A DNA stretch of 35,924 bases from Archaeoglobi archaeon JdFR-42 (lineage in GTDB: Archaea > Halobacteriota > Archaeoglobi > Archaeoglobales > JdFR-42), in NCBI GenBank assembly GCA_002010305.1, contig MTND01000021.1:1-35924 (forward strand). Direction: 5' to 3'. Shown here in pieces: positions 14,697 to 32,807 of the stretch. The notes below the pieces were generated by a model that saw nothing but the letters and a program-made list of their open reading frames with translations, searched no databases and was not told where the DNA came from. Each line of letters begins with the position of its first letter. The first letter of the stretch is position 1. The translations under genes and the position numbers were made by a program.

Positions 14697-14736
14697 TTGA
14701 CAACTTACACCGACAATTTGTAGCTATACTTGACAA
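14697..14736 (+). repeat. Tandem-hairpin element, degenerate copy after thrC
   Basis: Five bases after the thrC stop. The first unit is 20 bases (TTGACAAC, loop TTAC, ACCGACAA), followed by a single T and a second unit TTGTAGCT-ATA-CTTGACAA, then TTTC. Overall length, end motifs (TTG...CAA) and order match the other copies, but both stems have lost most pairing. It lies in the sense orientation relative to thrC. Confidence 0.6.
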
Positions 14737-14840
14737 TTTCAAAAACCTTTTTCAGCTACCGGATATAGAGTAGATTAATCCCAGAGGTTGTTTTCTCTCA
14801 CCAATCCATTTCTGTTATTGCAAAATATTAGATTTACACT

Positions 14841-14860
14841 TTGTCAACTATCGTTGACAA
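14841..14860. repeat. Isolated perfect palindrome upstream of aIF2-gamma
   Basis: A perfect 8-bp inverted repeat (TTGTCAAC, loop TATC, GTTGACAA). It is identical in its arms to the first hairpin of the copy at 29167 but has no clear second hairpin beside it. It ends 18 bp before the aIF2-gamma TATA-like box, so it could be an operator or a decayed tandem-hairpin element. Confidence 0.7.
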
Positions 14861-14878
14861 TATTGGTAGTTAAAAAGG

Positions 14879-14886
14879 TTTAAATA
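14879..14886 (+). promoter_or_regulatory. TATA box of the aIF2-gamma gene
   Basis: TTTAAATA preceded by purine-rich AAAAAGG (BRE-like). The expected transcription start about 25 bases on is near 14908, which leaves a very short leader that still contains GAGGT at 14908-14912 before ATG 14917. Confidence 0.6.
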
Positions 14887-14916
14887 GGTTATATAACAGC
14901 CAGTTATGAGGTTCTC

Positions 14917-16158
14917 ATGGGAAAAGATATACCACTACCTGAAGTAAACATTGGAATGGTAGGTCATGTAGATCACGGAAAAACCACCCTTGTCAGTGCT
15001 CTATCTGGGGTATGGACTGATAGACACAGTGAAGAGATGAAAAGAGGAATCAGTATCAGGCTCGGGTATGCCGATGCTACTTTCAGAAAGTGCCCCATGT
15101 GTGAAGGTATCAGAGCATATACTGTAAAGGAGCGATGTTCTGTTCATGATGTAGAAACAGAGATACTTCGAACCGTTTCTTTTGTGGATTCACCAGGTCA
15201 TGAGACTTTGATGGCAACAATGCTTTCAGGCGCCGCCCTAATGGATGGAGCCGTACTGGTTATCGCTGCCAATGAACCATGTCCACAACCACAAACCAAG
15301 GAGCATTTAATGGCTCTCAATATAGTGGGAATTGATAATGTGGTTATAGCCCAGAATAAAATTGATATAGTTCCCAAAGAGAGAGTTATTGAACACTATC
15401 AAGAGATCGTAGATTTTGTTCAGGGTACAACTGCTGAAGATGCCCCAATAATCCCCATATCAGCCCAGCAGAAAGTAAACATAGATGCCCTGATTCAGGC
15501 AGTTGAAGAATACATCCCAACTCCAGAAAGGGACCCTTCCAGAGATCCAATTATGCTTGTGGCCAGGTCTTTTGATGTTAATAAACCAGGAACAGCCCCC
15601 AAAGATCTGAAAGGAGGTGTACTTGGGGGAAGTCTGAGTCAGGGGAAACTGAAACTGGGGGATGAGATAGAGATTCGACCTGGACTGAAAGTAGATTCAG
15701 AAGGAAAGACATTCTGGAAACCCCTCATCACTGAGATAACTGGCATCATGGCTAGTGGGAAAATGGTGGAGGAGGCTACACCTGGAGGCTTGATCGGTCT
15801 GGGAACTAAACTGGACCCCTATCTAACAAAAAGCGATTCTCTCGTGGGGAATATGGTTGGAAAGCCAGGAAAACTCCCAGATATACTACACAGATTCCTT
15901 ATGGAAGTTCAGTTACTGGAAAGGGTAGTGGGTGCAAGGGAAGAGATTGATGTTGAAAGGATTAAGACTAATGAGCCTCTGATGCTCACCATTGGAACTG
16001 CCACGACATTGGGTGTGGTGATTAGTGCAAGAAATGATATTGCTGAAGTAAGCTTAAAAAGGCCAGTATGTGCAGAACCAGGATCGAGAGTTGCGATAAG
16101 CAGAAGGATTGGAGCACGATGGAGGCTGATAGGGTCCGGAATGATAGTAGACCAGTAA
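14917..16158 (+). CDS. eif2g: Translation initiation factor aIF2 gamma subunit
   Basis: A 413-residue GTPase that carries Met-tRNAi to the ribosome as part of aIF2. G1 GHVDHGKT (residues 16-23), DSPGHE (G3), AQNKIDI (G4) and ISAQQ (G5) are all present, followed by the two beta-barrel domains. The zinc knuckle has Cys59, Cys62 and Cys74, but the fourth position is His77 instead of Cys (C-x2-C-x11-C-x2-H). The ATG at 14917 is supported by GAGGT 5 bases upstream. The gene starts a long same-strand block of translation, transcription and KEOPS genes, and its end overlaps the PIN-domain gene by 40 bases. Confidence 0.97.
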
Positions 16159-16517
16159 TCATAGACACCAATGGCTTTCTCGCAGCTGAAGAGTTCAAGA
16201 TAGACGTATTTGAAGAGTTAAGGAACCTTGGCTTTAATCGATTTATCACACCCATGATGGTCATAGATGAACTGGCCACTCTCTCAAAACACAAAGGTAA
16301 AACTGGAATCGCAGCAAGAGTTGGGTTAAAACTAGCAGAGAAATGCGAAGTTGTCGATTTTAAGGAAAAGAGTGCCGACACTAGCGTCCTTCAATTAGCT
16401 CTTGAAAAAAATGGTGCGGTTTTTACCAATGACAGGAAACTGAGAAATGAAGCTGTAAAAAAGGGACTGCAAGTGGTATTTGTACGCAAGAACAGTCATC
16501 TTGGAATTAAGGGTTAG
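16119..16517 (+). CDS. PIN-domain ribonuclease-like protein (Fcf1/VapC9 type)
   Basis: A 132-residue PIN domain. IIDTNGFLA carries the first acidic residue, [24 protein letters not shown] the second, and [24 protein letters not shown] the C-terminal TND motif. PIN proteins of this type next to aIF2-gamma are common in Euryarchaeota and are usually annotated as rRNA-processing (Fcf1/Utp24-like). I start at ATG 16119 ([12 protein letters not shown]), with GGAGC upstream. The longer ORF from 16068 lies wholly within aIF2-gamma and is unlikely to be used. No antitoxin gene is adjacent, so a toxin role is less likely than RNA maturation. Confidence 0.88.
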
Positions 16518-16525
16518 ATTACCAA

Positions 16526-16536
16526 AATTTAAATAT
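16526..16536 (+). promoter_or_regulatory. TATA box of the rpoE' operon
   Basis: The AT-rich TTTAAATATTA follows ACCAAAA in the gap between the PIN gene and rpoE'. The predicted start near 16557 leaves a leader with GAGGGAT before ATG 16583. It may provide an internal promoter for the genes that follow. Confidence 0.5.
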
Positions 16537-16582
16537 TAGATGTTCAATTGGTGATGGTGCTTAATCCGTTAGAGGGATAAAA

Positions 16583-17146
16583 ATGTATATAAAGCTCAAG
16601 ATAAGGGATTCAGTTCGCGTTCCTCCCAGGAGATTCGAAGAAAATCTAGAAGAAGTAGTGAGGGATTTACTCTGGGAGAAATTCGAAGGTATTGTGGATA
16701 AAGAGTATGGGGTAATTATCGCTATAATTTCAATTGACGATATTGGAGATGGAAGGATCCTTGAAGGAGATGGTGCTGTATATTTTGACGTTGTGTTTAC
16801 TGCTCTCGCTTTTAAACCAGTTCTTCAGGAAATTGTAGAAGGAAAAGTGGTGGAAGTTGTAGAATTTGGAGCTTTTGTCTCCATCGGTCCTTTGGACGCT
16901 CTTCTCCATATGAGCCAAGTTACAGACGATTACCTAGTGTATGATGACAAGAACAGAAGACTGATCGGAAAAGAAAAGGGGTTGAGTATTACTGAGGGAG
17001 ATAAAGTAAGGGCCAGAATTGTAGCGATTAGCCTGAACGAAAGAGAGCCCAGAAACAGTAAAATTGGTCTTACGATGAGACAACCCGGGCTTGGAAATCT
17101 ATTGTGGCTCGAGGCTGAAAGAGAAAATAAGAAGGGAGAGAAATGA
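16583..17146 (+). CDS. rpo7: DNA-directed RNA polymerase subunit E' (Rpo7)
   Basis: A 187-residue homologue of eukaryotic Rpb7. The N-terminal RNP-like domain (MYIKLKIRDSVRVPPRRFEENLEEVVRDLLWEKFEG, shown in part here) is followed by a C-terminal S1 domain (EIVEGKVVEVVEFGAFVSIGPLDALLHMSQV). Together with Rpo4 it forms the stalk that helps open the promoter and binds emerging RNA. GAGGGATAAAA precedes ATG 16583. The stop overlaps the start of rpoE'' by 4 bases, the standard archaeal arrangement. Rpo4 itself is not encoded in the window. Confidence 0.96.
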   Translation: MYIKLKIRDSVRVPPRRFEENLEEVVRDLLWEKFEGIVDKEYGVIIAIISIDDIGDGRILEGDGAVYFDVVFTALAFKPVLQEIVEGKVVEVVEFGAFVSIGPLDALLHMSQVTDDYLVYDDKNRRLIGKEKGLSITEGDKVRARIVAISLNEREPRNSKIGLTMRQPGLGNLLWLEAERENKKGEK

Positions 17147-17328
17147 AAGAGTCTGCTTGTAAGAATTGTGGATATATAACCAGAGATAGTTCATGCAGTG
17201 TTTGTGGAGGTAAGGAATTGAGCACTGACTGGGCTGGATTCATACTCATAATCGATCCGAAAAATTCGAAGATTGCTAAAAAAATGGGAGTTTCCATGCC
17301 AGGATGGTATGCGATAAAAGTGCGATAG
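17143..17328 (+). CDS. spt4: Transcription elongation factor Spt4 (RNAP subunit E'')
   Basis: A 61-residue zinc-ribbon protein. Four cysteines in two CxxC pairs (CKNCGY, CSVCGG) bind zinc, and DWAGFILIIDPKNSKIAKKMG is the Spt4 core. Spt4 pairs with Spt5 to clamp RNA polymerase during elongation. The 4-base overlap with rpoE' (ATGA) implies translational coupling. Length is typical for archaea. Confidence 0.95.
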   Translation: MKESACKNCGYITRDSSCSVCGGKELSTDWAGFILIIDPKNSKIAKKMGVSMPGWYAIKVR

Positions 17329-17338
17329 GGTTTCCGAT

Positions 17339-17902
17339 ATGCTGCTAACAGAACAACTGAGAAAAAGGCTTAAAGACCCTCTCGGAAAACTGTATCGGGG
17401 ATCAGGAACGGAACTCATAAAATCTATTGAAGAGCTTAAAAGCAATAATTTTATGGCAAGTGTAGGGGATATAGTATGCTATTACCTGTGTCTTTCAGGC
17501 CATTCTCCTGAGATAATGGTAGTAGACGGTAAAACCATGAGGCGGCAAGTGGATGTGCAGATAACGGATATTATACAGAGTATGGATTACCGAAAAATTA
17601 AAGCTTCAAATCCTCCCGGATCAATAACAAAGGATCTAGTTCTTGCCCTTGAAGAGGCTGTGAACAACAGGAGATCCATGGTATTTGTAAATGGTGAAGA
17701 GGATTTGAGTGTTTTACCTCTTATAATGCTTTTACCTGAAGGGTCGATAGTTTTATATGGACAACCTTCCGAGGGGATAGTTGTTATCACCGTCGATCAA
17801 TCTAAAAAAACTGAGGTGTGCGAAATACTAAGAAAAATGGAAGGAAAAGACAGGAAATGGATATTGGATAAATTGTGTGGAGGTAATGCAAATGGACATT
17901 GA
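17339..17902 (+). CDS. GTP-dependent dephospho-CoA kinase (DUF359)
   Basis: A 187-residue protein of the DUF359 family, shown in Thermococcus to phosphorylate dephospho-CoA with GTP in the last step of archaeal CoA synthesis. Conserved blocks seen are PLGKLYRG, VGDIVCYYLCLSGHSPEIMVVDGKTMRR, ASNPPGSITKDLVLALEEAV, VNGEEDLSVLPLIMLLPEGSIVLYGQPSEGIVVI (quoted in part) and the C-terminal basic tail. It lies 10 bases after spt4 and overlaps S24e by 11 bases. Placement between RNA polymerase and ribosomal genes is usual in Euryarchaeota. Confidence 0.93.
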   Translation: MLLTEQLRKRLKDPLGKLYRGSGTELIKSIEELKSNNFMASVGDIVCYYLCLSGHSPEIMVVDGKTMRRQVDVQITDIIQSMDYRKIKASNPPGSITKDLVLALEEAVNNRRSMVFVNGEEDLSVLPLIMLLPEGSIVLYGQPSEGIVVITVDQSKKTEVCEILRKMEGKDRKWILDKLCGGNANGH

Positions 17903-18194
17903 AATAGTTGAAGACAAAGAGAATCCTTTACTTGGCAGAAGGGAGGTCAGATTTACTGTTACTTTTGATGGTGGAATGGTAAAAAGGGATGATGTTAGAG
18001 AGAAACTTATTGCTCTCCTCAATGCAAAACCAGAACTAACTGTTGTGGACTATCTCAAAGTAGAGTATGGAAAAGCTCAAGCGAAGGGTTATGCCAAGAT
18101 TTACTCCGATGAAGACCTTATGAGGAAGGTGGAGAGGAAACACATACTGGAGAGAAATTTTGGAAAAAAGGACGAGGGGAAAGAGAATGCATAA
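17892..18194 (+). CDS. rps24e: Ribosomal protein S24e
   Basis: A 100-residue small-subunit protein. [19 protein letters not shown] is the typical S24e start, and [20 protein letters not shown] the conserved centre. I start at ATG 17892 because GGAGGT at 17879-17884 sits 7 bases upstream; ATG 17886 is too close and a still longer start lies inside the ribosome-binding site. The C-terminal tail is lysine- and glutamate-rich. The stop overlaps the S27ae start. Confidence 0.95.
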
Positions 18195-18336
18195 GTTTTA
18201 TGAAATTAAGGGCGATAAAATTAAGAGGAAACGTATGTTCTGTCCCAGATGTGGAGAGGGTGTCTTTCTAGCAGATCATTCCGACCGACTTTCATGCGGG
18301 AAATGTGGATACACTCAGTTTAAGAAAAAAAAGTAG
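18187..18336 (+). CDS. rps27ae: Ribosomal protein S27ae
   Basis: A 49-residue zinc protein. The translation [20 protein letters not shown] opens it, followed by four cysteines in two CxxC pairs (CPRCG, CGKCGY) and a lysine-rich end. It matches archaeal S27ae, the unfused counterpart of the eukaryotic ubiquitin-S27a ribosomal domain. The ATG at 18187 overlaps the S24e stop codon, and the gene ends 8 bases before kae1. Order S24e-S27ae-kae1 is conserved in Euryarchaeota. Confidence 0.95.
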
Positions 18337-18344
18337 TATGACTC

Positions 18345-19316
18345 ATGTTGGTTCTTGGGATAGAGGGGACTGCATGGAATCTTAGCATAGCCGTCGTCAA
18401 TGAAAATTCTGTGATTAAAGAGGTACGGTACCCCTATATACCTCATAAAGGGGGAATTCATCCGCGAGAGGCTGCCCAACATCATTCTGGGCATATTGCT
18501 AAAGCCCTGAGAAATATTTTTTCCCAAATCGATCCTTCCACTCTTGATGGAGTAGCCTTTTCTATTGGTCCAGGTATGGGCCCATGTCTCAGAACCGTTG
18601 CTACTGCAGCAAGAACCCTATCTCTGGCACTGGATATCCCATTAATCGGAGTAAATCACTGTGTGGCCCATATCGAAGTAGGGTTGTGGAAAACTGATGC
18701 GAAAAATCCAGTGGTACTTTATGTGAGTGGTGGGAATTCCCAAGTGATTTCTCGACGAGGGAGATTTTACCGTGTTTTTGGAGAGACTTTGGATATTGGT
18801 ATCGGAAACGCTCTCGACAAGCTTGCAAGATATGCTGGTTTGCCCCATCCCGGTGGGCCCAAAATAGAGAAACTGGCTTTTCATGGCTCCCACTACCATT
18901 CACTCCCATATGTCATCAAAGGGATGGACTTTTCTTTCTCCGGTATGGTTACTGCAGCCCAAAACCTTCTTAATCGTGGAATTTCAGTTGAGGATGTGTG
19001 CTATAGCTTTCAGGAGACTGCTTTTGCCATGCTTGTAGAGGTAACAGAGAGGGCTATGGCATATCTGGAGCGAGATGAGGTACTGCTGGTTGGAGGAGTA
19101 GGAGTCAATGCCAGACTACAGGAAATGTTGCATATTATGTGCCAGGATAGAGGTGGAAGATTCTTTTGCCCGCCAAGAGAATTGATGGGGGATAACGGTG
19201 CTATGATCGGTTATACCGGCCTAAAGATGCTCAAAACCGGGGAGAAAACCCGAATAGAGGATTCCACTGTTAAACCCAATTATAGAGTAGATGAGGTTGA
19301 ACTTCCATGGATGTGA
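18345..19316 (+). CDS. kae1: KEOPS complex subunit Kae1 (tRNA t6A synthase)
   Basis: A 323-residue ASKHA-fold protein that transfers threonylcarbamoyl to A37 of ANN-decoding tRNAs. Metal-binding His105 and His109 lie in NHCVAHIEVG. VLYVSGGNSQVI, GETLDIGIGNALDKLAR and the C-terminal LVGGVGVNARLQE and GDNGAMIGYTG are the Kae1/TsaD signatures. In many archaea Kae1 is fused to Bud32; here the two are separate and overlap by 10 bases. It directly follows S27ae. Confidence 0.96.
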   Translation: MLVLGIEGTAWNLSIAVVNENSVIKEVRYPYIPHKGGIHPREAAQHHSGHIAKALRNIFSQIDPSTLDGVAFSIGPGMGPCLRTVATAARTLSLALDIPLIGVNHCVAHIEVGLWKTDAKNPVVLYVSGGNSQVISRRGRFYRVFGETLDIGIGNALDKLARYAGLPHPGGPKIEKLAFHGSHYHSLPYVIKGMDFSFSGMVTAAQNLLNRGISVEDVCYSFQETAFAMLVEVTERAMAYLERDEVLLVGGVGVNARLQEMLHIMCQDRGGRFFCPPRELMGDNGAMIGYTGLKMLKTGEKTRIEDSTVKPNYRVDEVELPWM

Positions 19317-19879
19317 TTCGAGGAGCTGAAGCGCTGGTAAAAATCCAAAATAATCTGGTAATAAAAAAAAGATTGCCTAAAAATTATCGCATACCTGAAA
19401 TTGACCATGATATCAGAAAAAAAAGGACCAAAACGGAAGCTCGAATAATATCTATGGCAAGACGATTTGGAGTTCCAACCCCTATAATCTATGATGTAAC
19501 AGAGGATACCATTATCATGGAGCGTATTAAAGGCAGACTCCTGAGAGATATTATGTCTCCTAAATATTCGCAAATAATGGGCAAATGTACAGCCATTTTA
19601 CATAACAATAGTATAATCCATGGAGATCTAACTCCCAGGAACGTTATTGTAAAGAATGATAGACTGTATTTCATAGATTTTGGCCTTGCCTTTTTTGATG
19701 AAAGAGTGGAACCCATGGGAATGGATATCCATGTATATTTCGAGGCCATAAAAGCAGACTTTGACAACTACGTTGAATTGAGAGAGGCTTTTATAGAAGG
19801 TTACAGGATTATGTCCAGATTTAATGAAGTGATGGAGAGGCTGGAGGACATTGAGGCGAGAGGACGATACAGAGTTTAA
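19307..19879 (+). CDS. bud32: KEOPS complex kinase/ATPase Bud32
   Basis: A 190-residue small RIO-like kinase. HGDLTPRN (105-112, catalytic Asp107) and DFG (124-126) are intact; MERIKGRLLRD is the hinge region. As in other archaea it lacks the large C-terminal lobe elements of protein kinases and probably acts as a P-loop-independent ATPase that activates Kae1. The ATG at 19307 lies within the end of kae1, so the two are coupled. The 3' end overlaps the TIM-barrel gene by 29 bases. Confidence 0.95.
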   Translation: MDVIRGAEALVKIQNNLVIKKRLPKNYRIPEIDHDIRKKRTKTEARIISMARRFGVPTPIIYDVTEDTIIMERIKGRLLRDIMSPKYSQIMGKCTAILHNNSIIHGDLTPRNVIVKNDRLYFIDFGLAFFDERVEPMGMDIHVYFEAIKADFDNYVELREAFIEGYRIMSRFNEVMERLEDIEARGRYRV

Positions 19880-20969
19880 CATAAGATTTGGGTTTAAAAC
19901 CCCTATAGCTCTGGCTCCAATGGCAGGGATAGTTGACTCTAAATTCGCTAAAAAATTCGATAGATATGCTGGTCTTGTGATTCTTGGAGGATTCAGTGCT
20001 GATACAACTACTATGGAAGCCAGCAGAAGGATGGTGGATCGAGGAAGGAGGGAATTTATTGTAGATGATCCTCTAAAAGGGATAGACAGAGAACTGAAAA
20101 GGGCAGGGAAGCTTAAGACACGGGTTGCCATTAATGTAAGAGCTTCTGAACCCTCTGTATACGAAGAAGTTGCTGCAATAGCAAAAAAACGTAATTCTAT
20201 AGTTGAAATCAATGCTCACTGTCGGCAAAAAGAGATTGTAAACGTCGGAGCTGGAGAGTATTTACTCGCTCATCCAGAGAAATTATGTGAAATTGTTGAA
20301 CGGGTTAAGGCAGAAGGGGTTATCACTTCAGTTAAAATCAGGAGTGGTGTAGTGGAAGAGGCATCTCTGGCAAGAGTTCTTCAGAGTGCTGGATTGGATA
20401 TCCTTCATGTGGATGCCATGGGCAGTGAAAAGTACGATCTCAGAGTGATAAAATCCATAAGAAATAACTCCAGTATGTTCATAATCGGAAATAATTCTAT
20501 ACGCAGTTTTGATGATGCAAAAAACATGTTCACTGCTGGAGCTGATATGATCTCCATTGCTCGTGGTGTTGTTGATAATCCAAACGTCTTTAAAGAAATA
20601 CTGGAAAAGATCATACACTATACCGCTGAGTTCGGATGGTATAATGCTCCAAAACACATTTGCAGAGGGGGAGATGTACGAGGCCTCACTTTTTGCTGCA
20701 AACCTCTTAAACCCTGTGCAATTCAGAAGGTTTTGAAGGAGTATGACATCTCTCCCTTCGAATTCATGAGATTGAAAGAGGAGTTTGCCAGAGGAACAGT
20801 ACTGGAGCTGGGAAAGCATACCTGCTTTGGTAGTCTGGTGTATTGCTGTAAAGCTACCAGACCGTGTTATATCCGGGATTCGACATTAAAATCTGCTGGA
20901 TTTACCCTGAAGGATTACATGAATCTCAAAAGAGAACTGGCAGAGTACTTGATGAATCATCTCCTTTAA
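19851..20969 (+). CDS. Dus-like TIM-barrel protein with methanogenesis marker 9-type Cys domain
   Basis: A 372-residue protein in two parts. Residues 15-255 form a flavin-type TIM barrel related to dihydrouridine synthases (PIALAPMAGIVDSKF, INAHCRQ with Cys124, DILHVDAMGSE, IIGNNSIRSFDDAKNMFTAG quoted in part, MISIARGV). Residues 265-345 carry two similar clusters: Cys271...Cys282-Cys283...Cys289 and Cys325...Cys332-Cys333...Cys339. This C-CC-C pattern matches the putative methanogenesis marker 9 domain, known chiefly from methanogens and relatives, of unknown function; it may bind an Fe-S cluster or zinc. The start is TTG 19851, with GGAGG 5 bases upstream, inside bud32. Co-translation with KEOPS genes hints at tRNA modification, but the marker domain hints at Mcr-linked metabolism. 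Confidence 0.82.
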   Translation: MRREDDTEFNIRFGFKTPIALAPMAGIVDSKFAKKFDRYAGLVILGGFSADTTTMEASRRMVDRGRREFIVDDPLKGIDRELKRAGKLKTRVAINVRASEPSVYEEVAAIAKKRNSIVEINAHCRQKEIVNVGAGEYLLAHPEKLCEIVERVKAEGVITSVKIRSGVVEEASLARVLQSAGLDILHVDAMGSEKYDLRVIKSIRNNSSMFIIGNNSIRSFDDAKNMFTAGADMISIARGVVDNPNVFKEILEKIIHYTAEFGWYNAPKHICRGGDVRGLTFCCKPLKPCAIQKVLKEYDISPFEFMRLKEEFARGTVLELGKHTCFGSLVYCCKATRPCYIRDSTLKSAGFTLKDYMNLKRELAEYLMNHLL

Positions 20970-21003
20970 TATTTCTTGTAACTACCCATAATGAACATTA
21001 AAC

Positions 21004-21432
21004 TTAGTCTTTAACATAAGGCAAGAACTCTTTGAGTTTCTCCATTGAAATATTGATAAGAACTGCTCTTGTATTTCCATCTACAATCCCTGTTACCACA
21101 ATGAGGGGCCAGTTTATATTAGAGAATATCATTGAATCTCCCACATCTATAGAACCATCTTCCTCATACCAGATTGATGGTTTGACTTTGCGGGGAAAAA
21201 AGAAAGTGATGTTGTTAATTTGCTCCATATCTCCTTTGGAAATCAGAGTTATTTTTACTGCCGTGTTATTTACCCATTCGAGGGCAAATTCAGGTCTTTC
21301 TTCCCCGTTGAGGATCTCTCCAAGACCCACAGCGGATATGGAAATAACCAAGTAAGTGAGGACGATCAAAATAAGTGCTATGATTGCCCCGTAAGTATGG
21401 GATAAACCTGCTCTACCGTGAAGAGGGGTCAT
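21004..21432 (-). CDS. Type IV pilin-like secreted/membrane-anchored protein
   Basis: A 142-residue protein. A short basic N-terminus (TPLHGRAGLSHTYG) precedes one hydrophobic stretch (AIIALILIVLTYLVISISAVGL, residues about 16-37). This resembles the archaeal class III signal peptide, with a likely cut after RAG and the hydrophobic core retained as the pilus helix. The remainder is a beta-rich soluble domain with a terminal basic segment. Archaeal pilin-like proteins assemble into adhesion pili or act as minor pilins. No prepilin peptidase or assembly ATPase lies nearby. It lies downstream of radB but is separated by 141 bp that contain a tandem-hairpin element, so it probably has its own promoter. 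Confidence 0.65.
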   Translation of the reverse strand: MTPLHGRAGLSHTYGAIIALILIVLTYLVISISAVGLGEILNGEERPEFALEWVNNTAVKITLISKGDMEQINNITFFFPRKVKPSIWYEEDGSIDVGDSMIFSNINWPLIVVTGIVDGNTRAVLINISMEKLKEFLPYVKD

Positions 21433-21527
21433 TTTACTCGTGTTTATGTTTCAATACAATATTAGCTTTTCTCTAAAAATTACAGTGTAGGTAGGAACAT
21501 AGATTAGAAACATTATTCCTATTGAAT

Positions 21528-21569
21528 TTGCAAATCAAAGATTTGCAATTTGTCAACTCATGTTGATAA
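21528..21569 (-). repeat. Tandem-hairpin element after radB
   Basis: Read on the minus strand (radB sense): hairpin 1 with 8-base arms TTATCAAC and GTTGACAA (one G-T/C-A type mismatch) and a 4-base loop, a single A, then hairpin 2 with perfect 9-base arms TTGCAAATC and GATTTGCAA and a 3-base loop, followed by ATTC. The element starts 4 bases after the radB stop. Compared with the 29167 copy, three base pairs of hairpin 2 differ and all three are compensated. Confidence 0.85.
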
Positions 21570-21573
21570 CTCT

Positions 21574-24251: not shown

Positions 24252-24292
24252 GGACTCACCACAATGTTTTTATTGAAACATCTGTAAAACTG

Positions 24293-24303
24293 TTATATAT
24301 AAA
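24293..24303. promoter_or_regulatory. TATA-like element between larC and cdc48
   Basis: TTATATATAAA lies between the divergent genes, 18 bp before the cdc48 ATG and 42 bp before the larC ATG. The spacing fits a larC transcript with a short leader. For cdc48 it is too close to leave the GAGGTGA site in the message, so a further-upstream box such as TTTTTATTG near 24267 may be used. Confidence 0.35.
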
Positions 24304-24320
24304 CTCTTGAGGTGACGTTT

Positions 24321-26534
24321 ATGGAAATAAACCTGAAAGTAGCTCAAGCATATCCGAATGATTCTGGCAGAGGTATCGCCAGACTTGATCCTGATACAAT
24401 TCGAAAACTCCAGCTTTCTCCCGGAGATATTATCGAAATTGAGGGTAAGCGAGTGACTGTGGCTAAAGTATGGAGAGCCGATAAAAGAGATTGGGGGCTG
24501 GATCTAATTCGTATTGATGGGTTTACTCGCCAAAACGCAGGAGTTGGTATTGGTGATGTAGTAAAGGTGAGAAGAGCTGATTATGAACCCGCAAAAACCA
24601 TCATTCTCGCTCCCCTTCAGGACATGAATTTTCAGATCTTTGGTATGAATGTAGGTGAGTATTTAAAGAGACAGATCCTTAAAAGGCCCATAGTCCAGGG
24701 TGATGTTGTTCCTATAATGGGGGGCCCAAATCCTTTCATTGGTCGTTTTGCAACGGCTCAGGCCTTACCCCTTGTCGCAGTTAAAACCGAACCTTCAGGT
24801 GTTGTTATCGTTGATGAGTCCACCAATGTTGTGTTCAGAGAAAGACCTGTTAGAGGTTTTGAGACCCTAGGCAGGACAGGTATAACCTACGAAGATATTG
24901 GTGGCTTAAAAGAAGAATTGCAGAAAGTTAGGGAAATGATCGAGTTACCCATCAAACACCCTGAAGTATTTCAGAAATTGGGTATCGATCCTCCCAAAGG
25001 TGTTCTGCTGTATGGACCTCCAGGGACAGGGAAAACTCTAATAGCCAAAGCTGTTGCAAATGAAGCAGGAGCTTCTTTTTATTCCATTGCTGGGCCAGAG
25101 ATTATGAGTAAATATTATGGAGAGAGTGAGCAGAGGTTGCGAGAAGTGTTTGAGAACGCCAAAGAAAATGCTCCTTCTATTATATTCATTGATGAACTCG
25201 ATTCTATTGCTCCAAAAAGGCAGGATGTAACAGGAGAGGTGGAACGGAGAGTTGTTGCCCAATTACTATCCCTTATGGATGGACTGGAAGAGAGGGGGCA
25301 GGTCATTGTTATAGGAGCCACCAACCGGATAGACGCGATAGACCCAGCCTTGAGAAGACCAGGTCGGTTTGATAGAGAAATAGAGATTGGCGTACCTGAT
25401 AGAAACGATAGAAAAGAGGTACTTCAGATTCACACTCGTAATATGCCTCTTGAAGAAGTGGATCTGGATTACCTAGCTGACCATACTCATGGATTTGTTG
25501 GAGCCGACATAGCTGCCCTGTGCAAGGAAGCAGCCATGAAGGCGTTGAGGAGGTATCTCCCTAGAATCGATCTGAACAAGGAGATCCCTCAGGAAATGCT
25601 GGATGAAATGGTTGTTGTGATGGACGACTTTAGAGAAGCATTGAAAGAGATAGACCCATCAGCCCTCAGAGAAGTGTTTGTTGAAATTCCCAATGTTACG
25701 TGGGATAATGTAGGTGGAATGGAGGATGTTAAAAGAGAGATAACCGAGGCAGTTGAATGGCCCATTAAACATCCAGATAAGTTTAAAAGAATGGGAATAA
25801 AGCCACCAAAGGGCATACTGCTGTATGGACCTCCAGGGACAGGGAAAACTCTAATAGCCAAAGCTGTTGCAAATGAGAGTGATGCCAACTTTATTAGTAT
25901 TAGAGGTCCCCAACTTGTTTCCAAGTGGGTAGGAGAAACAGAAAAAGGAATTAGAGAGACATTCCGCAAAGCGAAACAAGTTGCTCCGTGTATAATTTTC
26001 TTCGATGAAATCGATGCGATTGCTCCCATGAGGGGAATGGATGAAGGTACAAGAGTGATGGAGCGAGTGGTTAACCAGCTTCTCACGGAAATGGATGGGC
26101 TGGAAGAGCTGGAAGGAGTGGTAGTGGTTGGAGCGACCAACAGGCCGGATATCTTGGATCCAGCCCTATTACGACCAGGTCGGTTTGACAGAATGGTTTA
26201 TGTCAGACCTCCAGACAAACAAACACGAGTAGATATCTTTAGAATTCACCTTAAAGATACCCCCTTGTCAGATGATGTAGATATACATGAACTCGCTGAA
26301 CTAACAGAGGGCTATGTAGGGGCAGATATCGAAGCTATATGCAGGGAAGCAGCTATGCTCGCTTTAAGAGAAGATATAAATGCTGAACTTGTGGAAATGC
26401 GCCATTTCAGGGAGGCTATCAAGAAAGTTAAACCAAGTATCACCGAGAACCTTTTGGACTTCTATGACCGTATCACCGAAAGATTCAGAGAACAGGCTGT
26501 GAGAGGCACTAAGAATTTAGTTGGATATACATGA
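24321..26534 (+). CDS. cdc48: CDC48/VCP-family AAA ATPase (VAT-like)
   Basis: A 737-residue archaeal p97/VAT homologue at full length. The N domain (double-psi barrel plus four-stranded barrel) spans about 1-180. D1 has Walker A GPPGTGKT at 232-239 and Walker [16 protein letters not shown]2 has GPPGTGKT at 503-510 and [12 protein letters not shown]. Arginine fingers lie in [10 protein letters not shown] and [10 protein letters not shown]. It forms hexamers that unfold proteins, often for the proteasome; the C-terminus (NLVGYT) has no HbYX tail. I start at ATG 24321, with GAGGTGA 5-6 bases upstream, over GTG 24312. D1 and D2 share 59 identical bases around Walker A. Confidence 0.96.
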
Positions 26535-26808
26535 GAGAGCATTTACAAAAAATAACAATTCTCTTTTTCCCCACCTCTGATGACTAAACCCGCTGAGAGG
26601 TATTTTTAACAGAAAACGTTGATAAGATAATAGATATCATTTTATATTTTTCTTTAAATACTAAATCATTTGTAGTTCCTGATGCCTATTAAAAACTAGA
26701 CTTCATTAATTTTCCTAATCCAAAAACTCTTATTTATAAGAGAGATTTTTACAGAATGATCAACTTTCAAAGAAAAGGTTTAAGTTAGAGCCTATTGAAG
26801 TTCACTCC

Positions 26809-27561
26809 ATGGCATGGTCTGCATGGGTGGAACGAAGTGGAAAGTTCAATACAGGCAGATGTCTTGTTGTTGGAGGTCTGATATTTTCTATAATTTCAAT
26901 GTTTCTACCGAAAACCATGCTAGATGCTTTTGAAAAAAATTTTGATGCGTTTCTCTCACCCATTACTCAATTAACTGGCTCATTTCCCCTTGAAATGGGA
27001 CGCCGAGCAGAGCTTGTATTTGCAGGGATGGTGTTACTGATAATCGGTCTGGCGTTGGAGACTTATGCAGTTTATACTGATATCCAGTCGTATGGAAGGG
27101 TCACTCAGGAAATGGACAATCTGAGACTGAGGATGATCATTCTCTTTATATTTCTTCTTACATTCTTTATTGCACGCTTCTATGTCGTTCTCTTTAGGCC
27201 AGATATAGACCCTGTGTATGGTCTGTGGATCCGTGGGTTCAGAATCCATCATTTTGTGATCGGGGTCTTACTGCTCATGGCCTCTGGAGGAATCGGGTTG
27301 CTTTCAAGAGATCGATGGAAAATGATTGGAGGTATGCTGTATGGAGCTGGTCTTGGACTTACCATTGACGAATTTGGTCTTTTGATAACTTCCGGAGATT
27401 ACTGGAGTAGTATATCATACACATTATTTGTATTGCTTTCACTTATTATTTCGAATGCAATTTTGCTGGAGGCTTACTCCATTAAAAGGCGAGTTGTTGT
27501 AGGGATGGCACGAGATGAAACAGACATTTCTAGCATACCAAGTTCTTCAGATGAGAGATAA
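26809..27561 (+). CDS. Conserved six-span membrane protein with HH and DE motifs
   Basis: A 250-residue protein with about six transmembrane helices (near residues 20-36, 68-86, 109-130, 148-165, 170-190 and 200-222). Between helices 3 and 4 is GLWIRGFRIHHFVIG and after helix 4 GAGLGLTIDEFGLL. A His-His pair followed by Asp-Glu in neighbouring helices recalls uncharacterised integral membrane families with possible metal-site chemistry, but I cannot name an enzyme. The short soluble tail is charged and Ser-rich. The ATG at 26809 has no ribosome-binding site; TTTAAGTTA about 30 bases upstream suggests a leaderless message. It converges with the MFS gene. Confidence 0.7.
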   Translation: MAWSAWVERSGKFNTGRCLVVGGLIFSIISMFLPKTMLDAFEKNFDAFLSPITQLTGSFPLEMGRRAELVFAGMVLLIIGLALETYAVYTDIQSYGRVTQEMDNLRLRMIILFIFLLTFFIARFYVVLFRPDIDPVYGLWIRGFRIHHFVIGVLLLMASGGIGLLSRDRWKMIGGMLYGAGLGLTIDEFGLLITSGDYWSSISYTLFVLLSLIISNAILLEAYSIKRRVVVGMARDETDISSIPSSSDER

Positions 27562-27590
27562 TTTATCGATTATCAGGGTGACCAGCTACA

Positions 27591-27607
27591 TCCTGGATGT
27601 CCCAGGA
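27591..27607. terminator. Short hairpin between convergent genes
   Basis: A perfect 6-bp stem (TCCTGG and CCAGGA) with a 5-base loop lies between the convergent membrane-protein and MFS genes, 29 bp after the first stop and 45 bp after the second. It is a plausible bidirectional transcript end, but there is no strong T-run beside it. It is unrelated to the tandem-hairpin family. Confidence 0.35.
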
Positions 27608-27652
27608 AGAAGAATATGTGGATGATATATTTCACTGAATCTCCCAATTCTT

Positions 27653-28831
27653 TCAATCTTTTGTATTGTACAGAATTGCCAGAAATCCAAAAGCCATCAT
27701 TTCCACTACCACCACGAATACAACCAGATAGCTAATCGATATCTCATAAAGCACTCCCATAGTAATACTTCCGAAAAACCAGGCGAGACCATAAGCAGTG
27801 TTGAATATTCCATAAGCTGTTCCTCTTCGACTCATCGGAGTCATATCTGGAATTGTAGCACGCATCAGTGTCTCCTGTATTCCAATAACTGCACCAAACA
27901 GTATTAACCCACTTACAACATTGAAATACTTGTACGAAAAAGATAACAGCGGAATAGGAATTGTGAGAAGAGGAATTGTTACCAGAGCAACTATACCCAC
28001 CCTGTCATATAATCTGCCAATTATCAGGGCAATAACTGCATCAACGCCCATTGCCATGGCGTAGAGTACAGGAATCTGGATATCGGGAACGATAGAATTG
28101 ATCTTAAAATGGTATGATATGAGCTGGAAATTCGCAAATCCTGCAACGCTCGTTACAATGAACAGGCAGTATATCCAGAATACCATGGGAAACTTGCTTT
28201 TACTTCTGTCTGTAATCCTGGTCTTTTCTTCTTCAAAAGTTTCTGGAGTGGGAAATCTGATTCTTGCCATTCCGAGGGTTGTCATGGCCATCAGGGCTGG
28301 AATTATCAGAACTATGAACGCTTCACTATAACTTTCTCTAATATACAGGATGGTGGATATTAACAATGGACCTGTCACCGCTCCAATCTGATCCAGAGCC
28401 TCATGGATACCAAATCCCCATCCCCTGCCAACCTGTTTCGTTGCATAAGATAAGAGGACGTCTCTTGAAGGGGTTCTGATGGCTTTTCCAAACCTTTCCA
28501 TAATGATCAACATGGCAGCTATCTCCCAGAATCCAGAAAAGGCAAGCAAGGGGATAGAGAAGAGATTAATGCCATATCCAATCAAAGTTAGCGTCCAATA
28601 ACGCTTTGTGGTGTCAGCAATATACCCAGAAAATAATCTCAGGGCATAACCAACAAATTCTCCAAAACCTGCCACAAATCCAACAATGGTGGCGTTTGCA
28701 CCAAGAAGAGATAGATAAGGGCCAGTGATGCTTCGCGCCCCTTCGTATGTCATATCTGCAAATAGGCTTACAATACCCAGCATTAAAATGAACGTAAGCA
28801 GGACTTTTTTGGTAGAGGATACATCTAGCAT
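27653..28831 (-). CDS. Major facilitator superfamily transporter
   Basis: A 392-residue protein with about 12 membrane helices. The loop between helices 2 and 3 (GYIADTTKRYWTLTLIGYG) fits the MFS GxxxDxxxR motif, and RFGKAIRTPSRDVLLSYATKQ follows between helices 4 and 5, a pattern seen in a prokaryotic MFS group without known substrate. It could export a drug or metabolite; nothing in the context decides. The start at 28831 has GAGGCTGAG just upstream. A TATA-like CTTAAAAATA lies about 50 bp before the ATG. It faces a 463-bp gap that contains a tandem-hairpin element. Confidence 0.85.
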   Translation of the reverse strand: MLDVSSTKKVLLTFILMLGIVSLFADMTYEGARSITGPYLSLLGANATIVGFVAGFGEFVGYALRLFSGYIADTTKRYWTLTLIGYGINLFSIPLLAFSGFWEIAAMLIIMERFGKAIRTPSRDVLLSYATKQVGRGWGFGIHEALDQIGAVTGPLLISTILYIRESYSEAFIVLIIPALMAMTTLGMARIRFPTPETFEEEKTRITDRSKSKFPMVFWIYCLFIVTSVAGFANFQLISYHFKINSIVPDIQIPVLYAMAMGVDAVIALIIGRLYDRVGIVALVTIPLLTIPIPLLSFSYKYFNVVSGLILFGAVIGIQETLMRATIPDMTPMSRRGTAYGIFNTAYGLAWFFGSITMGVLYEISISYLVVFVVVVEMMAFGFLAILYNTKD

Positions 28832-29166
28832 ATCTCAGCCTCTGAATATTCTAAGTGTATCGGTCATGACAGTATTTTTAAGAAATTACTTCTGACGAGT
28901 TGTTGTCATCCACTCTCTCAATATAGGTTTTGCTAAACCTTCTTCTCCTTACTTTTTTCTGAAAATTATTTAAGTTTGAGCACTATACCAGTACAACCAT
29001 GTGTTTACATCACAAAAACGAGTTCTCTTTAGAAAAATGCCAGTTCATTAGCTGAATAGACACCATCCCTTTCTATTTTCCTTTATCACCATCTTTCTCG
29101 GATTTTACAATCTTTATTGAACGACTTTTCCTATTTCCCTATTATGTTGTTTATCTAGAAAGATTC

Positions 29167-29208
29167 TTGTCAACTCCTGTTGACAATTTGTAGAGCTAAG
29201 CTCTACAA
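29167..29208 (+). repeat. Tandem-hairpin element, perfect copy
   Basis: The best-formed copy of the family. Hairpin 1 has perfect 8-base arms TTGTCAAC and GTTGACAA with loop TCCT. After a single T, hairpin 2 has perfect 9-base arms TTGTAGAGC and GCTCTACAA with loop TAA, followed by TTTCC. Unlike the others it has no annotated gene just upstream in its orientation. Confidence 0.9.
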
Positions 29209-29251
29209 TTTCCTCATGTATAACAGATTTTAACTTCTTTTTTCCGACAAA

Positions 29252-29262
29252 GTTAAATATAT
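29252..29262 (+). promoter_or_regulatory. TATA box of the PRC-barrel gene
   Basis: GTTAAATATAT preceded by CGACAAA. The predicted start near 29281 leaves a short leader holding AGAGGGGA, a good ribosome-binding site, before ATG 29295. Confidence 0.55.
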
Positions 29263-29294
29263 CCCGTTATATTTTTCGTGTTAGAGGGGATTAT

Positions 29295-29561
29295 ATGGAA
29301 GGTGTGTTTTCAAGACAGTTGGCAAAAAAAAAGGTGATGACTTCTGACGGTACTCTCATCGGTATCCTCCACAATATAATTTCAGATCTAAGGACCGGGG
29401 AACTCATGGATCTTGTTGTCAGGCCAGATATGGGAATCGACCCATCAGAATACAATACAGAGGACGGATTCATCCTGATACCATTTTCAGCAGTCCGATC
29501 TGTGAGAGATTATATCGTGATAGATCGAAAAGAGGCGGTAAGAAGTAGTGCTGAAGAATAG
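29295..29561 (+). CDS. Small PRC-barrel domain protein (possible CdpB-type)
   Basis: An 88-residue single PRC barrel. MEGVFSRQLAKKKVMTSDG, LIGILHNIISDLRTGELMDLVVRP and ILIPFSAVRSVRDYIVID show the beta strands and the typical xxGxxxGxVxDxxxDxxTGxL pattern in modified form. Stand-alone PRC barrels of this size in Euryarchaeota include CdpB proteins, which link SepF to the division machinery with CdpA; others have unrelated roles. No SepF, CdpA or FtsZ gene is in the window, so the division role is only a possibility. AGAGGGGA precedes the ATG. The 3' end overlaps the DUF1614 gene by 14 bases. Confidence 0.85.
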   Translation: MEGVFSRQLAKKKVMTSDGTLIGILHNIISDLRTGELMDLVVRPDMGIDPSEYNTEDGFILIPFSAVRSVRDYIVIDRKEAVRSSAEE

Positions 29562-30249
29562 GCTTCTATTTTTACCCCTGTTTCTTCCTCTGTTTTTAAT
29601 ACTGGTTATCCTTCCATTTCTGATACTGTTTTTCATAGTATTTACTGGATTTACTGTAGGAAACCTACTGGGTATCTCTCCTGAAAACACCATCCTCATT
29701 TTCTTACTCATAGCTATTGGTAGTTTCGTCAATATTCCCGTGGTAGAGGTCAAAACCAGAGAGACGGACTATCATCCGTTTTCCATATTTGGATGGTTAT
29801 ACAGAGTTCCAAGAGTGAGAAAAACTGTTATTGCAGTCAATTTGGGTGGGTGCGTAATTCCATCAGTATTGTCTATATATTTCTTGTCAAGCATGCCCCT
29901 CCAGATGTGGCTACCTTCCATATCACTGATATCACTGATAACGTACTTCAATGCTAAACCTGTAAAGCATGTGGGTATAGCAATACCAATGCTTCTACCT
30001 CCAGCAGTATCAGTTTTTGTTTCTTATCTCATTATTCAGGCTCTGAGCCTTTCTATGTTCTTTCTCCCGCGGTTAGCATTTTCTGCTGGAGTCCTCGGAG
30101 TTCTTATAGGGGCTGATATCCTCCACCTGAAAGATGTGACTCGAATAGGACCAGCAGTTGTCAGTATTGGAGGTGCCGGTACATTTGATGGGATATTTCT
30201 TACCGGTATATTTGCTGTGCTTTTATCTGCTTTCTTTCTTCCTATATAA
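29548..30249 (+). CDS. DUF1614 membrane protein
   Basis: A 233-residue protein with about seven membrane segments. The C-terminal blocks GVLIGADILHLKDV, VVSIGGAGTFDGIFLTGIFAVLLS (quoted in part) and the preceding VKHVGIAIPMLLPPA are characteristic of DUF1614, a conserved prokaryotic family of unknown function. The GTG start at 29548 lies inside the PRC-barrel gene, so the pair is translationally coupled. That coupling suggests a joint membrane-associated role, but no substrate is known. The gene converges with the beta-CASP nuclease. Confidence 0.87.
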   Translation: MLKNRLLFLPLFLPLFLILVILPFLILFFIVFTGFTVGNLLGISPENTILIFLLIAIGSFVNIPVVEVKTRETDYHPFSIFGWLYRVPRVRKTVIAVNLGGCVIPSVLSIYFLSSMPLQMWLPSISLISLITYFNAKPVKHVGIAIPMLLPPAVSVFVSYLIIQALSLSMFFLPRLAFSAGVLGVLIGADILHLKDVTRIGPAVVSIGGAGTFDGIFLTGIFAVLLSAFFLPI

Positions 30250-30366
30250 TCTCCAACCATAATTGCCTGATTTTAAATAATCACTGTATAGATATTCCGA
30301 ATATTTCAATGGTGAATTCCCAGAATTTTCAGACATTAACAGGCATAGATATCCGACCTATTAAAA

Positions 30367-30408
30367 TTATAAAGCTAAGCTTTACAAATTGTCAACATAC
30401 ATTGACAA
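30367..30408 (-). repeat. Tandem-hairpin element after the beta-CASP gene
   Basis: Read on the minus strand (beta-CASP sense), it starts 13 bases after the stop: arms TTGTCAAT and GTTGACAA (7 of 8 paired) with loop GTAT, a single T, then arms TTGTAAAGC and GCTTTATAA (8 of 9 paired) with loop TTA, followed by TTTTAA. Same spacing and order as the other copies. Confidence 0.85.
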
Positions 30409-30421
30409 AAGTAAGAGACTA

Positions 30422-31771
30422 TCACACTAACTCTGCCACCTGCCTCATCTCAGGCACTACTGCTGTAATACCCTGTTTTTCGAGACTTAGAGCGAGATTT
30501 CTGCTTATATCCATCTCCCCATGAACAACAAAGGCTCTCCGAGGATCACATGCCCGACTCCACTCAAGGAGAAAATCTTTTCCTGCATGGGAAGAAAAAC
30601 CATTGATGGTATATATTTTGGCACGAACCGCCACCTCTTCTCCATAGATTCTCACTTTCTCCGCTCCATCCACTATCCTCCTACCGAGAGTTCCTTTAGC
30701 CTGAAATCCTACAAAAATCACCCCACATTCTTCCCTCCACAGGTTATGCTTCAGATGGTGTTTAATCCTTCCTCCCGTGCACATACCACTTCCAGCAATG
30801 ATTATGGCCCCTCCATCAATTTCATTAATCTCTTTCGATTCTTCTACATCTCTTGTATATGTTAACCCCCGAACTCTGAAAGGATCACTGAACATGAGAG
30901 CTTCCTTACTGTACAGTTCTGGATGAGCAGAATATACGCTGGTGATATCTATAGCCAGCGGGCTGTCCAGAAAAATCTGACAATCAGGAAGATCTCCTCG
31001 CTCCTGCAGTAAACGAAGAGCATAAAGGAGTTCCTGTGTCCTTTCAAGAGCAAACGAAGGAATAAGAACATTTCCCCCTTTTTTAAAGGTTTCGTGGATT
31101 GCCGTGTTAAGTTCATCAATGGACTCTTTCATGCTCTTGTGGTTTCTATCCCCATATGTAGATTCAATTATCAAATAGTCGGTTTTCCCGGGCAATTCTG
31201 GATCCATAATGGCTAGACTCCCTGGCTCTCCCAGATCTCCTGAAACAGTAAGAGAGAGATCCGACTGGATATTAACGAAAGCTGACCCGAGAACATGTCC
31301 TGAATTATACAGAGTTATTGTGATATCACCAAGATTCATGTGTTTACCATACTCTACCTTTTTCCACTCGAGATTTAGGCAATCTTTAACGTCCTCATGG
31401 GTATAAACTGGATAGACAGGTTTTAACCCTTTCCTAAGATTCCTCCTGGTCTGGGTTTTTGCTTCTTCTTCCTGTATTTTGGCAGAATCATATAGCATGT
31501 ATTTCACCAGCTCTCGGGTAGGAGAAGTTGCATAAACAACTCCTTCAAATCCCTTTTTCACCAGTTTTGGAAGCAAGCCAGCATGGTCAAGGTGGGCATG
31601 AGTGAGTATCACAGCATCTAGAGAGGCTGGATCGAATGGGAAATTACCATGATTGTTTTTTTCCATGGAACCCTGAAACATCCCTACATCAACCGCTATT
31701 TTTATGTTATCTTCAATCATAAAACACGAACCAGTGACAGTTCGAGCAGCCCCATAAAAACCAACTTTCAT
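30422..31771 (-). CDS. Beta-CASP metallo-beta-lactamase ribonuclease
   Basis: A 449-residue protein. The MBL part has LTHAHLDHAG (metal motif 2), NSGHVLGSAF and SGDLGEPG. The beta-CASP part has IPSFALERTQELLYAL (motif A region), GSGMCTGGRIKHHL (motif B) and INGFSSHAGKDFLLEW (motif C). It is related to CPSF73-like and aRNase J-type nucleases but lacks the N-terminal KH domains of aCPSF1. The first in-frame start (31876) adds 35 residues not typical of the family. I choose ATG 31771 (MKVGFYGAARTVTGS), which has no ribosome-binding site but a TATA-like TTGTATATATC about 26-36 bases upstream, consistent with a leaderless message. A tandem-hairpin element follows the stop. Confidence 0.92.
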   Translation of the reverse strand: MKVGFYGAARTVTGSCFMIEDNIKIAVDVGMFQGSMEKNNHGNFPFDPASLDAVILTHAHLDHAGLLPKLVKKGFEGVVYATSPTRELVKYMLYDSAKIQEEEAKTQTRRNLRKGLKPVYPVYTHEDVKDCLNLEWKKVEYGKHMNLGDITITLYNSGHVLGSAFVNIQSDLSLTVSGDLGEPGSLAIMDPELPGKTDYLIIESTYGDRNHKSMKESIDELNTAIHETFKKGGNVLIPSFALERTQELLYALRLLQERGDLPDCQIFLDSPLAIDITSVYSAHPELYSKEALMFSDPFRVRGLTYTRDVEESKEINEIDGGAIIIAGSGMCTGGRIKHHLKHNLWREECGVIFVGFQAKGTLGRRIVDGAEKVRIYGEEVAVRAKIYTINGFSSHAGKDFLLEWSRACDPRRAFVVHGEMDISRNLALSLEKQGITAVVPEMRQVAELV

Positions 31772-31796
31772 AAGGGTGGAGTGGTTTTCAGAGATA

Positions 31797-31807
31797 TATA
31801 CAATTTT
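31797..31807 (-). promoter_or_regulatory. TATA-like box of the beta-CASP gene
   Basis: On the minus strand TTGTATATATC lies about 26-36 bases before ATG 31771, the expected distance for leaderless transcription in archaea. This supports the shorter start of the gene. Confidence 0.5.
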
Positions 31808-31959
31808 CTCTTCATACAACACTTTCAGAAGTTGTATTTTAAGAGAAAGATTATTGTATGTCCTCTTGGCCACCAATATAAGTTACCGTGAACATCCATC
31901 ACATACACTGATTATAAAAATTGTAATTCCTGTTTCCAGTGGAATACCAGGAGGTGAAA

Positions 31960-31970
31960 ATTTTTAATAT
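31960..31970 (+). promoter_or_regulatory. TATA box of the KaiC-like gene
   Basis: ATTTTTAATAT preceded by GGTGAAA (BRE-like). The expected transcription start near 31992 leaves a leader of about 40 bases containing GAGGTGA at 32022-32028. Confidence 0.5.
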
Positions 31971-32032
31971 GTCAGAGAGTATAATATCCGTGTCCTACCC
32001 ATACCAAAAGGTATTTGATATGAGGTGATGGG

Positions 32033-32707
32033 GTGGAACGAGCTTTAACCGGTATTGACAAGCTGGATGAAATCCTGAAGGGTGGAATTCCTGTTCCTTC
32101 TGCACTTCTAATTCTGGGAGAGGTTGGAACCGGGAAGAGTGTTATCTGTCAGCAGTTCATATACAAACAGGCAAAAATGGGGATTCCGTGTGCTTATTTC
32201 TGTATTGATCATTCTCCTGAAGACGTGAAAGATAACATGAGAAGTCTTGGATGGGATCCTGTTGAATTCGAAAACAGTGGCTTGATTAAATTTGTGGATT
32301 TATTTGTTGGAAGAGAAAAAGAGTCAAAGAAGGAGTACCAGGGAGACCCACATAATTTAGGAGAGCTAATATCTATTTTAAGAAAATTTGTTAAAGATAG
32401 TGATCGATTTGTGGTTGATTCTATCTCCTCGATAGCATTTCTACACGGTGAGAGAGAGGCCTATGACCTCGTGCAGAAAATTCATGGATGGATATGGGAC
32501 GATAAAAGTGTTGGTGTAATAAATGCTGTGAAAGGTATGCACTCTACCAGTTTTGAGATTGCCATACAGCAGGCTCTGGGGAACGTTCTCATTTTGGAAA
32601 TAGATGAAGAGAGTAGATATCTTCATGTTGCAAAAACTACCCGAACAGCCCATCTGACCGGTAGATTTGGTTTAGAAATAGATGAAGACGGAATCAGGAT
32701 TCTGTGA
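32033..32707 (+). CDS. KaiC-like RecA-superfamily ATPase, single domain
   Basis: A 224-residue protein with one KaiC/RecA domain. GIDKLDEILKGGIPVPSALLILGE leads (quoted in part) into Walker A GEVGTGKS, and DRFVVDSISSIAFL is Walker B. AYFCIDHSPEDVKDNMRSLGW is the usual KaiC segment after the P-loop. Circadian KaiC has two such domains; single-domain archaeal versions are common and have varied or unknown signalling roles. The GTG at 32033 follows GAGGTGA by 4 bases. A tandem-hairpin element lies 58 bases after the stop. It converges with the sulfur operon. Confidence 0.9.
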   Translation: MERALTGIDKLDEILKGGIPVPSALLILGEVGTGKSVICQQFIYKQAKMGIPCAYFCIDHSPEDVKDNMRSLGWDPVEFENSGLIKFVDLFVGREKESKKEYQGDPHNLGELISILRKFVKDSDRFVVDSISSIAFLHGEREAYDLVQKIHGWIWDDKSVGVINAVKGMHSTSFEIAIQQALGNVLILEIDEESRYLHVAKTTRTAHLTGRFGLEIDEDGIRIL

Positions 32708-32765
32708 TTAATAGTCGCCTATAGGTACACATTTCAGAAATTTACAAAGGACTAAAATTCCAGTT

Positions 32766-32807
32766 TTATCAACGTGAGTTGATAATTTGTCAAGATATCC
32801 TCGACAA
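32766..32807 (+). repeat. Tandem-hairpin element after the KaiC-like gene
   Basis: Hairpin 1 has perfect 8-base arms TTATCAAC and GTTGATAA with loop GTGA. Relative to the 29167 copy the third base pair has changed from G-C to A-T on both arms. After a single T, hairpin 2 has arms TTGTCAAGA and CCTCGACAA (7 of 9 paired) with loop TAT, followed by TTTTTC. It is in the sense orientation of the KaiC-like gene, between convergent transcripts. Confidence 0.88.

Follow-up and report, generated by a model that had tools for sequence, protein, structure and literature searches.

Duplication of a TA target is typical of MITEs such as the Correia elements of Neisseria and the RUP elements of pneumococcus. 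The Correia element as first described is 204 bp long (PMC10969869). The REP/BIME/REPIN sequences are extragenic palindromes of ~20 nt that most commonly occur as doublets, are randomly placed outside genes, and occasionally form tandem arrays (PMC3116915). One criterion for REP/RAYT sequences is a GTAG or GTGG tetranucleotide at the foot of the hairpin (PMC6006769). Here, we describe a 42-nt element of two hairpins that recurs in the window (the whole stretch of 35,924 nt that was analyzed) and throughout the 2.15-Mb genome of its Archaeoglobales host. These elements probably form a family of minimal mobile DNA that is specific to the lineage and non-autonomous (MITE- or REP-like), and which a putative enzyme would move in trans.

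The 42-nt unit and its distribution

The unit consists of hairpin A, TTGTCAAC-4-GTTGACAA (20 nt; 8/4/8), one linker base, and hairpin B, TTGTAAAGC-3-GCTTTACAA (21 nt; 9/3/9). Five clear copies, with covariance-model scores of 45–61 bits, and one degenerate copy are located in the window (Table 1), where the hairpin A pattern occurs five times with up to three mismatches, compared to 0.13 expected occurrences. The window has no match in Rfam 15 at the gathering score. The initial annotation had listed five copies of this two-hairpin plan. Four of them are clear (those at 21528, 29167, 30367, and 32766; 50–61 bits), but the one at 14697 is strongly decayed, and the clear copy at 14818–14860 had been missed.

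Table 1. Positions of twin-hairpin elements and other repeats in the window, elsewhere in the host genome, and in other archaea
Feature	Position	Strand	Context	Score and flanks
Decayed A-B copy	14697..14736	+	5 nt past thrC stop	14.6 bits, E=0.26 (window, filters off); weak, accepted on consensus resemblance
A-B copy	14818..14860	-	thrC/aIF2-gamma gap, antisense to these two + genes	45 bits, E=4.6e-8; TA/TA flanks
A-B copy	21528..21569	-	4 nt past radB stop, sense to radB	57.1 bits
A-B copy	29167..29208	+	Divergent gap, 86 nt upstream of next gene call	57.8 bits
A-B copy	30367..30408	-	13 nt past beta-CASP gene stop, sense	61 bits; identical flanks AA/AA (+ strand)
Copy with diverged B hairpin	32766..32807	+	58 nt past kaiC-like gene stop	50.2 bits; identical flanks TT/TT
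Tandem array A-B-A-B-A-B	C8:40808-40940		Host genome	
Two-hairpin insert, genus g37	L209:3415-3461		Species-specific at near-identical locus	
Two-hairpin insert, genus g37	L210:5278-5328		Species-specific at near-identical locus	
Two-hairpin insert, genus g37	L255:4640-4690		Species-specific at near-identical locus	
Two-hairpin insert, genus g37	L278 near 10633		Species-specific at near-identical locus	
~630-bp multi-copy repeat, genus g37	L205:12541-13182		Also at many G091 contig ends (L221-L240)	
Two adjoining pairs of long perfect hairpins	L056:7450-7630		Ca. Ethanoperedens thermophilum	

A covariance-model search of the genome and its relatives, which the initial annotation had suggested as a check, bore out a family confined largely to the host. 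The model, trained on 44 genome copies, returned 86 matches at E<=0.01 in the host genome, corresponding to ~80 sites, nearly all of them intergenic. At E<=1 there were 146 matches, many of which are copies found a second time on the opposite strand, and merging of matches down to E of about 0.2 gave 81 sites. More than one dimer match was found in 10 of these 81 sites, which are tandem arrays (for example, the C8 array in Table 1). Searches with the single hairpins gave a similar picture: hairpin A, with up to two mismatches, occurs 41 times in the genome (1 for the reversed-pattern control), and hairpin B occurs 36 times (0 for the control).

Among 59 relatives (one from the same family and most others from the same order), there was a single weak match (G036, E=0.0019), and a survey of 394 genomes from the phylum added one match in each of two other genomes; the searches over more than 40 genomes ran with stricter filters, under which weak matches are lost. 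For comparison, the aIF2-gamma of the host is 83 per cent identical to that of Archaeoglobaceae archaeon S009_4, the closest named record. In the nearest relative (L016), the gap upstream of aIF2-gamma has no evident thrC upstream. A generic search for arrays of adjacent perfect palindromes found 1.7 per 100 kb in the host (around its sites), 3–7 in another archaeal genus of the phylum (g37, see below), and 0.3 in other archaea; 160 kb of sequence from Archaeoglobales relatives contained no such array. The exact consensus is not in IMG/VR, and a viral carrier was therefore rejected. In the literature, mainly open-access, we found no description of a 42-nt twin-hairpin family.

Gene context and stem covariation

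The initial annotation had portrayed the repeat as an element of gene 3' ends, with copies that follow stop codons by 4, 5, 13, and 58 nt, have the same orientation as the preceding gene, and carry a T-rich tail. The distances and orientations are correct for those four copies, but the rule fails for some window copies, as the one at 29167 is placed between divergent genes and the one at 14818 is antisense. The four sense copies would suit a two-hairpin terminator or a stabilizer of mRNA 3' ends, which would be transcribed together with the gene before it and be under selection as an RNA structure. The genome-wide context, derived from simple in-house gene predictions for 544 kb surrounding the sites, does not display this pattern. 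The 70 sites that could be placed in two-gene gaps are distributed over convergent, tandem, and divergent gaps in a ratio of 18/33/19, compared to 13/37/20 expected from the available space; convergent gaps are slightly over-represented, as a terminator would predict, but divergent gaps are filled as expected. The A-to-B order is sense in 16 and antisense in 15 of the tandem-gap cases, and within 60 nt of a stop codon the numbers are 23 and 17. Sense copies in tandem gaps are followed by a T-run in 4 of 38 cases, which is no excess over the background of 12 per cent. The placement of the elements is random in position and orientation and carries no gene-end signal, and the four sense copies next to stop codons in the window are therefore unrepresentative. 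A lack of bias in position and orientation is among the outcomes that the initial annotation had named as refuting its proposal, and its 3'-end interpretation fails on this part. They also serve as a caution that random insertion can yield sense-oriented hairpins after stop codons in any one window.

The compensated changes that the initial annotation had noticed in the stems extend to the whole family. Doubly changed stem cells number 58, compared to 17.8 in shuffles, and stem positions pair in 92 per cent of cases versus 84.6 per cent when shuffled, a pairing value that is somewhat inflated because copies were collected by palindrome-type patterns. One stem pair appears as GC, UA, AU, and CG among the copies. 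Stem columns average 86 per cent identity, and the loops and linker 49 per cent. By itself, the covariation is compatible with an RNA function, a DNA-level hairpin requirement, or palindrome correction, and does not separate them. Among pairs in which a single base has changed, selection on RNA should favor G.U on the RNA's own strand. In the A-to-B orientation, we counted 29 G.U and 40 A.C pairs, and in the gene-sense orientation 23 and 19. These about equal numbers imply no preference for an RNA strand, and the pattern of half-changes fits a DNA-level requirement or palindrome correction by template switching. Although the strong covariation would be expected of a terminator or mRNA stabilizer, the random orientation, the background level of T-runs, the lack of a G.U preference on the sense strand, and the absence of the element from relatives with the same transcription machinery make such a role highly improbable.

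The same stems could instead be sites for a dimeric DNA-binding protein, either a regulator or a nucleoid protein, in which host selection would maintain palindromes about two helical turns apart. The spacing of the ~21-bp palindromes by 21–22 bp, the lack of a strand preference in the stems, and the intergenic location agree with this proposal. Such a protein, however, predicts conserved half-sites, yet the stems change in compensated pairs, and it predicts neither a 2-bp direct flanking repeat (see below) nor restriction to one genome. We consider binding sites of this kind quite unlikely.

Flanking repeats and the putative mobilizer

In the A-to-B orientation, the flanks of the elements read RRTA-element-TAYY, and TA-flanked sites have the context RRTAYY. 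Identical dinucleotides border the element on both sides at 46 of the 81 sites, compared to 26.1 with shuffled flanks. Of 25 offsets tested, only the exact model ends clearly stand out (0 of 500 shuffles reached the value); the next-best offset has P = 0.016, which is unremarkable among 25. Direct repeats of 3–5 bp show no excess at the model ends, and the 2-bp excess is unchanged after removal of weak or clustered sites. Among the 27 sites without TA on either side, 12 still have identical dinucleotides (AA, TT, CT, CA, and TC) versus 4.4 expected (0 of 20000 shuffles), and only 1 of 27 has complementary ones. Because these non-TA flanks are repeated and not complementary, an extended palindrome does not explain the repeat and was rejected as the source of the TA flanks. 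We attribute the 35 of 81 sites that have no identical dinucleotide to decay. The 2-bp direct repeat is the signature of insertion with target-site duplication, for which the evidence in this lineage is statistical; a BLAST search of 100-bp flanks against a quarter of the genome returned no usable paralogous empty sites. The 8-mers at the two ends match as inverted repeats (at a mean of 5.25 of 8 positions versus 2.24 in the control), with TTGTnAA in common, although these terminal inverted repeats are short and imperfect.

We therefore return to the proposal of a mobile element. A 42-bp unit of two different ~21-bp palindromes would insert into intergenic RRTAYY-like sites, duplicating 2 bp of the target, mostly TA, and would occasionally be built into tandem arrays. 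We infer an enzyme, supplied in trans, that would probably recognize the palindromes, either as single-stranded DNA hairpins or as paired palindromic binding sites, and only copies with intact hairpins would multiply. Such selective multiplication would explain the compensated stem variants, the variable loops, and the lack of strand preference. The host elements were apparently once mobile and spread to ~80 intergenic places. One point against mobility is that a transposable unit of 42 bp would be very small. If transposed as such, the element would be, to our knowledge, among the smallest mobile units described, and the substrate would consist almost entirely of its hairpins, making their recognition easily testable.

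Searches of the host genome found no match to Y1 (PF01797), for which 5 of 14 control genomes were positive. DDE_3 (PF13358) and DDE_Tnp_1 (PF01609), both detected in control genomes, are not found in the 99.6 per cent complete host assembly, and an IS630- or IS4/IS5-type partner was rejected on these grounds. Insertion sequences are often missing from assemblies of this kind. The mobilizing enzyme may belong to a family other than these three or may have been lost. Among the options raised in the initial annotation, a REP-like element spread by a transposase comes nearest to the evidence, but the REP-associated TnpA that it had envisaged has no counterpart among the host's genes (no Y1 match), and a GT[AG]G foot is found at only 1 of 71 sites. 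RAYT/REP membership was rejected for these two reasons.

Similar elements in other archaea and comparison with known systems

The B-like hairpin pattern has a background of 0–13 occurrences per genome in nearly all members of the phylum. It is found 73–101 times in three species of genus g37 (G082, G091, and G098) and, in other families, 80 times in G189 and 38 times in G171; in the latter (L177 and L186), the hairpins sit in arrays of several unlike palindromes. A separate observation concerns Ca. Ethanoperedens thermophilum, in which two adjoining pairs of long perfect hairpins span ~180 bp and have a TGCACAA..TTGTGCA palindrome in common.

The typical g37 unit is ATGA-(TTGCAAATC-3-GATTTGCAA)-AC-(TTGAAAATC-3-GATTTTCAA)-ATGA, with a unit length of 43–44 bp. 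Like the host element, it has two ~21-nt palindromes, placed 2 nt apart with outer TTG...CAA, and a direct flanking repeat, and it has the AAATC-3-GATTT core of the host's B variants. Unlike the host element, it has a second palindrome of the TTGAAAATC type instead of A, its flanking repeat is the 4-bp ATGA, and it also forms longer mixed arrays. The two elements may be akin, as judged by the common plan and the resemblance of their cores, in genera that are unrelated within the phylum.

The g37 units are present or absent between species at loci that are 95–96 per cent identical. One G091 copy is a clean 47-bp insertion (a 43-bp unit plus ATGA) at a locus that carries one AATGA in both G082 and G098, and further two-hairpin insertions, with less clear flanks, are specific to G082, G091, or G098 (Table 1). 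These polymorphic sites are ready natural experiments. The L278 insert appears to be placed within the loop of an older hairpin, and many units separate the TGA of a gene from the ATG of the following one. A ~630-bp multi-copy repeat of g37 was considered as an autonomous partner and rejected, as its ends resemble IS-type inverted repeats (GGCACT...) and the hairpin is internal; it contains a transposase-like ORF fragment without a significant Pfam match.

The left flank in g37 is mostly ATGA and the fourth base of the right flank varies, as would be expected of relic ends of the IS200/IS605 type. Such elements are moved by a Y1 (HUH) enzyme, and their flanks would be a required target and an element-borne end, with no target duplicated. 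Enzymes of this group recognize hairpins of 20–25 nt, with a conserved tetranucleotide next to the left end (PMC6006769). The host, however, has no Y1 gene and almost no GT[AG]G feet, and its excess of identical non-TA dinucleotides is not produced by an element-borne end, which renders such relics unlikely. More tentatively, twin-hairpin elements might represent an undescribed class of minimal, enzyme-mobilized DNA (42–44 bp, two palindromes, and a 2- or 4-bp duplication) that has undergone separate expansions in scattered lineages of archaea within the phylum.

Like the Correia and RUP MITEs, the host element is short, intergenic, and non-coding, has inverted-repeat termini and a lineage-specific expansion, and is bordered by a short direct repeat that is mostly TA. 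It is far smaller than any MITE known to us. The difference in length from the Correia element is substantial (42 bp versus 204 bp; PMC10969869). Unlike these MITEs, the host element is made of two unlike palindromes and not of one long inverted repeat, its duplication is not strictly TA, and no IS630-type (DDE_3) gene was found in the host genome. With REP/BIME/REPIN sequences, it has in common the randomly placed doublets of ~20-nt extragenic palindromes, some in tandem arrays, but its two palindromes are unlike in sequence and also in length (20 and 21 nt), whereas a REPIN doublet consists of two copies of one REP in inverted orientation. The 2-bp direct repeat and the lack of a Y1 gene distinguish it from REP/RAYT. 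Since the tested REP features are lacking and the MITEs that we know of are far larger, we assign the element to neither family. By analogy, it may be viewed as a variant of miniature non-autonomous elements that would work like both MITEs and REPINs.
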